DNA of 10,768 nt. Origin: Bacillota bacterium. Lineage in GTDB: Bacteria; Bacillota; Clostridia; Saccharofermentanales; UBA5734. The notes under the pieces were generated by a model. It was not told the DNA's origin. It ran no database searches and was given only the letters and a program-made list of their open reading frames with translations. The stretch covers positions 1-10,768 of the forward strand of contig JAEXPB010000174.1 in NCBI GenBank assembly GCA_023438965.1, in the 5' to 3' direction. The stretch's first letter is position 1; every line of letters starts with the position of its first letter. The position numbers and the translations under genes were made by a program. This document shows positions 5,160 through 8,414 of this stretch, piece after piece.

Positions 5160-6107
5160 ATGACCGACACCAGCAGCAATCAGATTTGGCAAGCCTGGCA
5201 GAATTATCGGGACTTCGAATTGCGGGCCCATCGCTTCCGTCCGGAAATGCTGCCGCTCTTTTATCAATACCTGGGCATCCGGCCGGACTCCAACGTCCTC
5301 GATGGCGGCTGCGGCACCGGCGTGTTCACCCGTTTTCTAGCCCAGGGGCTGACTGACGGCCGGATCACCGGCTTTGACATCAATCCCGGCTTTATCGCCT
5401 ACGGCTGCGCCAGAAACAAGGAGATGGCGCTCGAAAACCGGGTTACTCTCGAGCTGGCCGACGGTTTTCAGCTGCCTTATCCAGATCATACTTTTGATGC
5501 AGTGACGAATTATACCTACCTTGGCGTGCTTTCCGATCCGCCGGCAGGTTTACGCGAATTGATCCGGGTCGGCAAGCCTGGGGCTGTCATTTCCTGTGTT
5601 GTGGCAACCAACCAGGTTCAAGCGGTCCATTGGCTGGGTGATTATCCCTTTGCTGGTGCCGATGAGCTGCAGCGATTATTGGCGCAGGAGGGCAAAATTT
5701 TTACCCAATTCGCGCATGCCGGCGCCGACTTGCGGCAAAGTAATGAATGGCATGCTTTCCGCTATCCGAAGCTGTTCGATCAATGCGGTCTGCAGGATAT
5801 CAATCTTTATCCTTTTGCACATGCGATCTGCTATTCCGATAGTCGGTTTCCAGCTGATTACCGCCGGGAATTGGCTATTGCGGAAACCCGGTCAGACAGC
5901 GAATGGATCCGTTCGCGCTATCAGGCGAAAAGGGATATCTACAATCAGCATCAATTTAGCGACCAGGACTGCGATCGCTTGATCGAGCTGTTGGATAGGA
6001 AAGCCATGTATTTGGCGGAGCATTTCGATCAAGACCGCAGTTATGAATGGCATGGCGCATTCAATTTCATTGTGAGCGGCGTCAAACGAGCATCATATCA
6101 GGTATAA
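5160..6107 (+). CDS. Class I SAM-dependent methyltransferase
   Basis: Soluble 315-aa methyltransferase that uses S-adenosylmethionine. Motif I is VLDGGCGTG (46-54), followed by the ribose-binding acidic residue in GFDINPGF (D73), then ADGFQLPYPDHTFDAVTNYTYLGVL (100-124), the methyltransferase type 11 pattern. About 170 residues follow the Rossmann core without a recognisable domain and may bind the acceptor, which cannot be named. A good ribosome binding site (GGGAGG) precedes ATG 5160. The gene is 27 nt after GH127 and probably cotranscribed with it, so it may act on a related sugar or glycoside; that is inference only. Its last codons contain the promoter of the downstream RNA element. Confidence 0.9.
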   Translation: MTDTSSNQIWQAWQNYRDFELRAHRFRPEMLPLFYQYLGIRPDSNVLDGGCGTGVFTRFLAQGLTDGRITGFDINPGFIAYGCARNKEMALENRVTLELADGFQLPYPDHTFDAVTNYTYLGVLSDPPAGLRELIRVGKPGAVISCVVATNQVQAVHWLGDYPFAGADELQRLLAQEGKIFTQFAHAGADLRQSNEWHAFRYPKLFDQCGLQDINLYPFAHAICYSDSRFPADYRRELAIAETRSDSEWIRSRYQAKRDIYNQHQFSDQDCDRLIELLDRKAMYLAEHFDQDRSYEWHGAFNFIVSGVKRASYQV

Positions 6108-6108
6108 T
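6079..6108 (+). promoter_or_regulatory. Promoter of the retron-like ncRNA, overlapping the methyltransferase stop codon
   Basis: A perfect TATAAT (6103-6108) overlaps the methyltransferase TAA stop. The inverted repeat of the RNA element starts at 6116, where a transcript from this box would be expected to begin. The -35 region is weak (GCGTCA at 6079-6084, spacer 18). Confidence 0.5.
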
Positions 6109-6115
6109 AATCATG

Positions 6116-6131
6116 CTGCCGCGGGAGAAGA
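6116..6131 (+). repeat. Left arm of perfect 16-bp inverted repeat (a1-like)
   Basis: CTGCCGCGGGAGAAGA pairs base for base with 6251-6266. The pairing stops cleanly at both ends: 6115 G faces 6267 A, and 6132 G faces 6250 G. Confidence 0.9.
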
Positions 6132-6250
6132 GCCGCCTTCGGGCGGGCCTCCGGAGAAGTCAGCGACGCCAGGACGGCATGAGGCCGGCTAGTGGAGGCG
6201 CGCGGCGTCGTACCCTTCAGTATGGCTAAAAAAAGCCATTGCAAGCTTGG

Positions 6251-6266
6251 TCTTCTCCCGCGGCAG
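6251..6266 (+). repeat. Right arm of perfect 16-bp inverted repeat (a2-like)
   Basis: TCTTCTCCCGCGGCAG is the exact reverse complement of 6116-6131. It is followed by ATTTGTTTTTA (6267-6277), a T-rich tract that could weakly terminate or pause transcription between the ncRNA and the RT gene. Confidence 0.9.
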
Positions 6267-6345
6267 ATTTGTTTTTATTGCCTATTGACGGTCGAAGCAG
6301 TCGGACGATTGGATGATGGAGCCACCGGAGAGATGATAGCACAGG

Positions 6346-7671
6346 ATGATAAACGACAAACCGAATCAGGAAGAATCTTGTCTGGCACCGCTGGCTGATC
6401 CGGCGGTTTGGACCGGTTTTGTCGACCTATTTGCGGACAAAAACCGGCACCGGCAGCGGAAGACCCAGGCGTTCCGGGATTTGCTGCCCCAGTCGGCCGA
6501 GTTGGCCGAAGCGGTGCTGACCGCCAGCTACCAGCCGGAACTGCCGCGCCGTCTGGCGGTCAGCAAGATGGACAGCCGGCGGAAACGTCTGGTTTATGTC
6601 TATCCGCCCGCGGACGAACTGGTTTTCAAGCTCTGCGGCCGGCTTCTGGGCGCGCACGACCATCTGCTGCCGGCAGCATGCCATGCATTCCGGCCGCGGC
6701 ACGGCGCCCGGCAGGCTTTCCAGTCCCTGCTGCGCCAGCCTGACCTGGACCGGCTGGCCGTGATTCGGGTGGATATCGCCGACTACTTCAACAGCATCCC
6801 GCCGGAAGGCGCGCTGGCCGCTTTACCGGTAGCGATCCGGGCTGATGTGCCGCTGATGAACGTCCTGCGGCAGGTTGTCCTGGCCGGCGGATATTGTGCA
6901 GGCGGCCAAATCGTATCGGCTGCACCGGCGGGCATCAAACCCGGCACGCCCCTGGCGCCGATCCTGGCCAATTATTACCTCGCCGGCCTCGACCGGCATT
7001 TCCTCGACCAGGGGATCCTTTATGCCCGCTATTCGGACGACATCATCCTGTTTGTGCCGCCGGAAAGACAAACGACGGTCTTTGCGGAATTGTGCAAATG
7101 CCTGGAGGAACTTGGCCTGGCGTTGAATGAAGCCAAGACCTGCCTGCGCGCCCCGGGTGAACGCTGGGAATATCTGGGCTTTGCCTATGAACGGGGCCGG
7201 ATCGACCTGTCGGGCGCCGCCCTGCATAAGATCAAAGCCCGCGTCCGGCGGCTGGCGCGGCGTCTGAACCGCTATCGCTGCCGGAAAAATGTGCCGCCGG
7301 ACAAGATTCTCCATTTCTTCTTCCGCCGGCTGAACGGGCGCTTGTATGGTTATGACGGACAGCCGACCCGCTTCTGCTGGACCCGCTGGTATCTGCCGGT
7401 GATCAACACCGCCGGCTCCCTGGGCGAACTGGACCGCTACTGCCAGGAGGCCGCCCGTTACGCCTGCACGGGTCATTATCGCCGTGTCAACTACCGCCTG
7501 TTTACGCGAACACAGCTGACCCAGGCCGGCTGCCGGCCGCTGGTGCCTTTTTACTTTGCCCGTGGCTGGCGGAAACTTGCCGTTGCCGGGAAACCAGACC
7601 ACCCGGACAGGAATACGGGCAGGATCAATTCTATTGGAGCAGTTCCCGCAGAACCTGCGGATAATTGTTGA
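6346..7671 (+). CDS. Reverse transcriptase (retron-like / group II-like RT) with C-terminal extension
   Basis: RNA-directed DNA polymerase of 441 aa. Fingers-palm motifs appear in order: FRPRHGARQAF (about 115-125), motif A VIRVDIADYFNSI (D143), motif B GIKPGTPLAPILANYYL (197-212), catalytic motif C YSDD (229-232), motif D LEELGLALNEAKT and motif E WEYLGF (274-279). A basic thumb-like stretch follows (KIKARVRRLARRLNRYRCRK), then about 95 further residues of unknown role (TRWYLPVINTAGSLGELDRY onward). All three catalytic aspartates are present, so it should be active. The retron signatures NAxxH and VTG are not visible and motifs B and E read more like group II-intron RTs, but no maturase endonuclease (HNH) domain or intron was seen. 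The start has only a weak ribosome site (AGG abutting ATG). The structured RNA upstream is the likely template/primer. Confidence 0.9.
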   Translation: MINDKPNQEESCLAPLADPAVWTGFVDLFADKNRHRQRKTQAFRDLLPQSAELAEAVLTASYQPELPRRLAVSKMDSRRKRLVYVYPPADELVFKLCGRLLGAHDHLLPAACHAFRPRHGARQAFQSLLRQPDLDRLAVIRVDIADYFNSIPPEGALAALPVAIRADVPLMNVLRQVVLAGGYCAGGQIVSAAPAGIKPGTPLAPILANYYLAGLDRHFLDQGILYARYSDDIILFVPPERQTTVFAELCKCLEELGLALNEAKTCLRAPGERWEYLGFAYERGRIDLSGAALHKIKARVRRLARRLNRYRCRKNVPPDKILHFFFRRLNGRLYGYDGQPTRFCWTRWYLPVINTAGSLGELDRYCQEAARYACTGHYRRVNYRLFTRTQLTQAGCRPLVPFYFARGWRKLAVAGKPDHPDRNTGRINSIGAVPAEPADNC

Positions 7672-8380
7672 TGAACAAGTGCGTAAATCGATAGGCTGCC
7701 GTCTCTTCATAAGTTGATCGCTGCAAACCATCGGCTCCGATTTGATAGATCGTTGCCTGGGGATAGGACAGGATAACCGGCGAGAGGGTGGCAATGATGA
7801 ATTGCGAACCATCCCGGACCAGATCATGCAAGCGGGCCAGAAATGCCAGCTGCCTTTCCGCTGAAAGCGCGGCTTCCGGTTCATCCAGGATATACAGGCC
7901 GTTACCGCCGAACCGGTTCAGGAAGAGCGATAAAAAGGATTCGCCATGCGATTGCTCGTGCAGGGACTTGCCGCCGTAGGAGGCGATAATCGGACGGGAG
8001 ACGGCGGGCAGACTGTCCATTGATTCAATGTTGGTGGCAACGTTATAGAAGCTTTCGGCGCGGAGGAAGAAACCATCCCGCGGATGGCGGGCAGCTTTGC
8101 GCAGCCGCAGGTGGCGATATAAATCCGAAGACGATTGCCGGGTGGCGAACGAAAAGTTGACTGACCCGCCTTCGGCGTTGAACCCATAAGCGATGGCAAT
8201 GGCCTCGATCAAAGTGGACTTCCCGGACCCGTTTTCTCCGGTGATAAAAGTCACCTGCGGATCGAGCGGCAGTGCCGATAATCCCTGCAAAGCCGGCAGA
8301 TTATAAGGATAACGCTGCTGGTCATCCGGCAGGTTGAACAGAACATCGGTGACGAATCCCATTTGAGCTGGATTTTTCAT
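7631..8380 (-). CDS. AAA/ABC-type ATPase (COG3910-like predicted ATPase)
   Basis: Soluble ATPase of 249 aa with a Walker A motif GENGSGKST (48-56), a signature-like SHGES (144-148) and Walker B YILDEPEAAL (163-172). It resembles the small stand-alone predicted ATPases of the COG3910 type, whose biological role is unknown. The family normally has IATHSP at the H-loop; here it is IATLSP (L199, codon CTC at 7784-7786), a single-base change from histidine that could weaken hydrolysis. ATG 8380 is chosen over GTG 8392 because GGAGG lies 5 nt upstream. It converges on the RT gene, and the two coding ends overlap by 41 bp. Whether it works with the RT is unknown; it cannot be cotranscribed with it. 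Confidence 0.88.
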   Translation of the reverse strand: MKNPAQMGFVTDVLFNLPDDQQRYPYNLPALQGLSALPLDPQVTFITGENGSGKSTLIEAIAIAYGFNAEGGSVNFSFATRQSSSDLYRHLRLRKAARHPRDGFFLRAESFYNVATNIESMDSLPAVSRPIIASYGGKSLHEQSHGESFLSLFLNRFGGNGLYILDEPEAALSAERQLAFLARLHDLVRDGSQFIIATLSPVILSYPQATIYQIGADGLQRSTYEETAAYRFTHLFINNYPQVLRELLQ

Positions 8381-8385
8381 TATAT

Positions 8386-8390
8386 CCTCC
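8386..8390 (-). promoter_or_regulatory. Ribosome binding site fixing the ATPase start
   Basis: GGAGG on the minus strand with a 5-nt spacer to ATG 8380. The upstream GTG at 8392 overlaps this site and is unlikely to be the start. Confidence 0.7.
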
Positions 8391-8414
8391 ACAATTTGAG
8401 GCGTGCTGACAATT

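Follow-up and report, generated by a model that had tools for sequence, protein, structure and literature searches.

A UG26 reverse transcriptase and its partner RNA, a divergent relative of Rfam RT-5, in a Clostridia contig

The class 2 DRT reverse transcriptases (RTs) studied so far copy a short piece of a partner RNA into repeat DNA, and in DRT3a an ACACAC loop lies in a position similar to that of other templates (PMC13174585). In DRT10 the template is located directly 3' of a stem-loop and follows an A-B-A' pattern, and DRT2 copies its RNA by rolling circle (PMC12632851); the part copied by DRT2 belongs to a pseudoknotted RNA (PMC12039810). Here we describe a locus in a 10,768-nt stretch of DNA from a Bacillota bacterium of the class Clostridia (assembly GCA_023438965.1, contig JAEXPB010000174.1; hereafter the window), in which an RT gene of the UG26 group follows a short segment bracketed by a perfect inverted repeat. 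We propose that this locus is probably a two-part ribonucleoprotein system, consisting of the UG26 RT and its own RNA, that carries out RNA-templated synthesis of short-repeat complementary DNA (cDNA).

By sequence, the window RT is a member of the UG26 group. It matches the PADLOC model RT_UG26 (PDLC03764) with 319.6 bits (E = 6 × 10−96, residues 12–405, nearly the whole protein), compared with 103.6 bits for the runner-up model, and UG26 matches were obtained for 12 of 12 members of its close clade. PADLOC lists this model under DRT; as a protein model, it carries no RNA information. The original prediction had called for a phylogenetic placement of the RT, and in our tree the 26 UG26 sequences, including that of the window, form a single clade (support 100/100), to the exclusion of the other RTs in the tree (five from UG17, three from group II introns and one from a retron). 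Of the 120 proteins listed, with that of the window counted among them, 116 have YSDD as the catalytic motif and 4 have YADD.

A fold comparison puts the window RT nearest to a group II intron RT, and among the 20 plasmid matches listed from a tblastn search with the window RT, most are annotated as group II introns or are unannotated. A domesticated group II intron, or a relative of the diversity-generating retroelements (DGRs), is nevertheless a hardly credible source of this locus. The group II maturase profile reaches 92.4 bits against a cut-off of 300, the window has no Rfam match, to an intron RNA or otherwise, and the RT falls outside the intron clade, as the tree (which included no DGR RT) separates UG26 from the three group II RTs with 100/100 support. 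We also found no pair of template and variable repeats among the repeats listed: those in direct orientation in the 10.8-kb window extend to at most 38 nt at 74% identity (ungapped; 20 of at least 60 families listed).

The original prediction had described a 151-nt segment bracketed by a perfect 16-bp inverted repeat, with AGC right after the left arm, its own TATAAT box and the RT gene 80 nt downstream. The repeat itself was confirmed (CTGCCGCGGGAGAAGA and its reverse complement, 151 nt in outer span; Table 1). It is the longest perfect inverted repeat with a 60–200-nt loop in 6108–6345, where 1,000 dinucleotide shuffles gave a mean of 6.8 bp and a maximum of 13 bp, and no second perfect inverted repeat of at least 12 bp with a loop of 30–300 nt occurs anywhere in the window. 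The RT gene does lie downstream, with its start codon 79 nt beyond the right arm. The AGC, at 6131–6133, shares its first base with the last base of the left arm and so does not come after the arm. Of the claimed promoter, the hexamer stands, with the left arm beginning 7 nt on, but a sigma-70 promoter scan returned 0 sites, a promoter and terminator scan of 5900–6500 was empty and no −35 partner was found. Across the family, a TATAAT-like box (at least 5 of 6 matches, no more than 16 nt upstream) precedes 25 of 78 RNAs, and the mean number of matches is 3.96 versus 3.39 in shuffled sequence; a separate promoter immediately ahead of the RNA probably drives its transcription.

Inverted repeats around an RNA that lies ahead of an RT gene are a retron-like arrangement, and the locus had been read as retron architecture, either a divergent retron lineage or a separate system of similar layout. 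Retrons are marked by the motifs NAxxH and VTG in the RT and by a branching G that directly follows the a1 arm and is conserved and unpaired; a divergent retron would prime from that G and make multicopy single-stranded DNA from the segment between the arms. The window locus differs from retrons in RT clade, in RT motifs and in the sequence after the arm. Its RT is UG26 by profile and tree, apart from the retron RT included, and scores 32.4 bits with the NCBIfam retron St85 model against a cut-off of 235. Neither NAxxH nor VTG is found in the window RT, as had been noted earlier, and they occur in 1 and 5, respectively, of the 120 listed proteins. In the family, the left arm is followed by neither an unpaired conserved G nor an unpaired AGC: in 45 RNAs, the first column after the arm is A in 43 and G in 2, the second is T in 28, C in 16 and A in 1, and the third is G in 35 and A in 10 and is paired in helix P2. 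A divergent retron thus appears very unlikely and membership among the retrons is not supported, whereas the other half of the original prediction, a separate system of RT and non-coding RNA (ncRNA) with a retron-like layout, has good support from both covariation and co-occurrence.

For the covariation analysis we used 80 loci with UG26 relatives (28–39% identity; the best 80 of 507 from a scan). The covariation covers these loci rather than the clade of the 11 closest RT relatives (P0002–P0012, 48–62% identity). Most of the 80 have a terminal inverted repeat at the equivalent place, with varying sequence. In alignment A3, which comprises 45 of the loci, picked by eye for a clear terminal stem and not fitted to the model structure, 23 of 24 predicted pairs have compensatory changes; for a 39-pair structure, 81.2% of cells are paired versus 65.2% after shuffling, and covariation is 0.606 versus 0.286. 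The terminal arms upstream of RT homologues do covary, with both-sided changes in 8 of 8 modelled pairs of the terminal stem P1. In P3, the helix that forms the pseudoknot, 98.9% of cells are paired and 4 of 6 pairs show both-sided changes. Alignment A6 represents the lineage of the window (the window, seven loci and a further genome, L123) and was fitted to the model structure, so that it leans towards the model; 85.5% of its cells are paired versus 67.7% after shuffling, and P1 shows both-sided changes in 7 of its 8 modelled pairs. The register of hairpin P5 in these counts fitted badly (34.1% paired in A3 and 32.6% in A6); rechecked sequence by sequence, P5 has 6 bp in the window and at least 4 uninterrupted bp in 76 of 77 relatives. 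Comparison thus shows, at the level of sequence, that the RNA adopts a conserved fold, which a terminal stem closes and which contains an internal pseudoknot.

A covariance model built from the 45 loci of A3, without the window (R1; its E-values are rough), has its sole match in the window at 6119–6262 (E = 4.8 × 10−7). It detects the RNA at 77 of the 80 UG26 loci, including 32 of the 35 that were not used in building (some of them near copies of ones that were), so that nearly all of these RT homologues carry the RNA. The three misses are L003, with only 120 nt of upstream sequence, L039 and L067. We then examined one set of 391 Clostridia genomes (RT at E ≤ 1 × 10−40; RNA at E ≤ 1 × 10−3 with strict filters), in which 16 genomes have a UG26 RT; the RNA was found in 15 of these 16 and in 0 of the 375 others. 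Locus L009, which played no part in building the model, comes from one of the 15 genomes (G005); among the other 14, no contig has the same length as any contig of L001–L080. The comparison shows that, in the genome sample tested, the RNA occurs only with UG26 RTs, and we regard a partnership between the two as almost certain. The UG26 RTs without an RNA match in the sequence searched are those of L039, L067 and the RT-positive genome G243 (RT at C95:8243–9319).

In most loci the RNA sits just upstream of the RT gene, as a cis-acting leader would if it regulated that gene and took no part in the chemistry of the enzyme. At L037 and L063, however, other genes separate the RNA from the RT, which begins about 5 and 3 kb further downstream, and in genomes G208 and G093 the two are 1.2 and 7.3 kb apart. 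An RNA so placed can act as a separate molecule and need not be the leader of the RT message. The somewhat enriched TATAAT-like boxes, and a run of at least 4 T at the 3' end of 47 of 78 RNAs (a raw count with no control), also argue against a leader, which we consider very improbable. Locus L049 also belongs to this group, in which RNA and RT are some 1.2 to 7 kb apart. At L037 the gene immediately before the RT, whose stop codon adjoins the RT start codon, encodes a protein that by eye resembles an HD-domain protein.

The core of the same RNA is matched by the Rfam family RT-5 (RF03026) at 8 of 12 UG26 loci tested. RT-5 gives no match in the window, either at the gathering threshold or at E = 10, and misses every tested member of the deep lineage to which the window belongs (the window, L006, L007 and L044). 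The window RNA is tied to RT-5 through R1, several of whose source RNAs match RT-5; judged from these sequence matches, it is a divergent relative of the annotated RNA. The Rfam structure line contains the pairs of P4a, P4, P4b and P5, and lacks the terminal stem P1 and P2. It also lacks P3, but such models cannot hold pseudoknots, and this absence says nothing.

Between P5 and the right arm lies the loop J5/1 (Table 1), which we consider likely to be part of an RNA that the RT uses as a template. In the proposed mechanism, the RT would bind the folded RNA core, J5/1 would serve as the template and P5 would halt synthesis at its 5' end. The new DNA might then slip back onto the short repeat A' and be extended once more, so that short-repeat cDNA would accumulate in the manner of DRT10 and telomerase; the predicted product of the window is (GCTTGCAA)n. 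We give such tandem-repeat synthesis an even chance. J5/1 is 10–13 nt long in UG26 RNAs, as measured in the alignment to the model, which itself partly determines these lengths, and the sequence TT(C/T)AAA is mostly conserved. Among 78 RNAs (those of 77 loci and the window, added by hand, after a chance match at L077:6779 with E = 0.31 was dropped), 50 have an A/A' repeat of at least 3 nt, compared with 31.5 expected from letter shuffles, none of 2,000 of which was as high. In the window, the repeat unit TTGCAAGC (6239–6249) is self-complementary in tandem, a property found in about 1.5% of random 8-mers and, among the 49 other loci whose repeat is at least 3 nt long, in 1; the first T of the TTG repeat may be taken into the P5 pairing.

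The closest parallel is with DRT10, represented here by UG17 loci. Three of these (L125, L126 and L127) encode, upstream of a SLATT gene, an RNA similar in length and plan to that of UG26, with a terminal stem, inner hairpins and, after the last hairpin, a loop before the 3' arm. Their loops contain a 4-nt A-B-A' repeat with a unit of 10, at 1759–1778, 1819–1838 and 1854–1873, respectively. The UG17 RTs differ in forming a clade separate from UG26 and in having SLATT as a partner, and the DRT10 loop is about 20 nt rather than 10–13 nt; a Pfam scan of 10 window proteins, the RT neighbours included, gave no SLATT domain at E = 0.001. No clean terminal-stem layout was seen in the stretches examined of two other UG17 loci, L121 and L128. 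UG17 RTs were absent from the 391 Clostridia genomes at E = 1 × 10−60, a threshold at which no positive-control genome was detected either, and were present in 1 of 295 Bacteroidia genomes at E = 1 × 10−50. Locus L128 (1900–2513) has a UG17 RT without a SLATT gene annotated beside it. UG26 shares the class 2 trait of a conserved ncRNA encoded with the RT (77 of 80 loci; 15 of 16 RT-positive genomes); the class 2 likeness is one of the RNA, with UG17 being the only other UG group in the tree.

Several observations, in addition to the fold comparison given above, weigh against RNA-templated repeat synthesis by a class 2-like system. When the tails are swapped among family members, the expected number of A/A' repeats is 50.0, the same as the 50 observed (p = 0.58; for mean length, p = 0.17), and covariation between A and A' is thus not demonstrated; the A-B-A' pattern is a feature of the family and may have another cause. 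Taken alone, the TTG repeat of the window has a shuffle P of 0.119, and those of the three UG17 loops have P = 0.18, 0.48 and 0.13. In many UG26 RNAs, A' lies partly within the P1 stem, and the J5/1 of the window deviates from the conserved TT(C/T)AAA. The UG26 RNA model gives no match in L121, the sole UG17 locus searched. On the protein side, no invariant C-terminal Tyr or Ser primer was seen among the 120 listed proteins: at position 388, 110 of them have Tyr and the window RT has Arg, and at position 403 the residue is Tyr in 80, Phe in 34 and Trp in 6. Finally, there is no sign of a defence island, as the other genes of the window do not recur beside other RTs when sets of open reading frames (ORFs) are compared; the sole recurrence is of weak matches of its AraC-type regulator.

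The tail-swap result would also suit a reading in which the RNA is an essential partner of the RT and the template lies elsewhere, for example in the apical loop of P4 or in a longer stretch copied by rolling circle. The apical region of P4 varies in length and sequence across the family, and DRT2, introduced above, is a precedent for copying part of a pseudoknotted RNA by rolling circle. But J5/1, with its short length and mostly kept TT(C/T)AAA, is positioned like other class 2 templates, and we judge a template elsewhere to be unlikely, at roughly one chance in a handful.

Table 1. Features of the UG26 locus, in window coordinates
Feature	Position	Strand	Basis
Candidate −10 box (TATAAT) for the RNA	6103..6108	+	sequence; −35 partner not found
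UG26-associated ncRNA, divergently related to Rfam RT-5	6116..6266	+	R1 model match
P1 terminal stem, 5' arm	6116..6131	+	perfect repeat; both-sided changes
P2 hairpin, UUCG loop	6133..6146	+	A6: 97.2% paired, 3/4 pairs changed on both sides
P3 pseudoknot, 5' strand GCCTCC	6147..6152	+	A6: 100% paired, 2/6 changed on both sides, 4 invariant
P4, 5' strand	6162..6170	+	A6: 95.2% paired, 7/7 pairs changed on both sides
P3 pseudoknot, 3' strand GGAGGC	6194..6199	+	as for 5' strand
P4, 3' strand	6204..6211	+	as for 5' strand
P5 hairpin before putative template loop; GGCT/AGCC core 6224–6237	6222..6239	+	per-sequence check
J5/1 loop ATTGCAAGCTTGG, proposed template; candidate TTG-CAAGC-TTG	6238..6250	+	position as in three UG17 loci; role inferred
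P1 terminal stem, 3' arm	6251..6266	+	as for 5' arm
UG26 reverse transcriptase, 441 aa	6346..7671	+	profile match, tree
YSDD catalytic motif of RT	7030..7041	+	sequence
AAA ATPase gene, convergent with RT, overlaps its last 41 bases	7631..8392	−	

At 45 of the 80 UG26 loci, a small gene on the same strand precedes the RNA, mostly about 500–1,000 bases before the RT frame, forming a cassette of gene, RNA and RT. Its product has a conserved C-terminal domain, with no Pfam match above cut-off in the 8 proteins searched, a weak PADLOC match to the RT-associated COG2852 in 4 of 5 proteins (E = 6 × 10−6 to 2 × 10−3) and weak, nuclease-like Foldseek matches, the best being TnsA (E = 0.014). Locus L057 has a second copy of this gene, downstream. 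Neither the window nor any of the seven loci examined from its deep branch carries the gene, and the window therefore seems to hold a two-part version of the system. The AAA ATPase gene that overlaps the end of the RT gene has no counterpart at E = 1 × 10−3 among the ORFs that neighbour the other 80 RTs. Viral contigs scanned at the protein level yielded no relative, and tblastn with the window RT found nothing at 60% identity or above in plasmids (825 records) or phages (11 records).

By analogy with the class 2 DRT systems studied so far, phage defence is a probable role, somewhat more likely than not. A more speculative proposal, which we think doubtful as a whole, is that UG26 is telomerase-like, with the RT-5 core and terminal stem templating short repeats, and that the lineage of the window needs nothing beyond RT and RNA for this, having neither SLATT nor the nuclease-like gene. 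As (GCTTGCAA)n is self-complementary, a single enzyme would then make DNA that pairs with itself into a duplex.

We found no link between UG26 and RT-5 in the literature searched, which did not take in Weinberg 2017 and Mestre 2022, both possible sources; RT-5 is reportedly from Weinberg et al. 2017. The same literature gave no function for RT-5 RNA, and one article mentions UG26 and reverse transcriptase in passing. Our results tie the Rfam RNA RT-5 to one group of RTs, UG26. They enlarge the known fold of this RNA by a terminal stem and a pseudoknot, and they extend both to a deep lineage whose tested members all escape the Rfam model. If the loop is the template, UG26 would join DRT3a, DRT9 and DRT10 as RNA-templated makers of repeats, and this would bear on the origin of telomerase-like synthesis.

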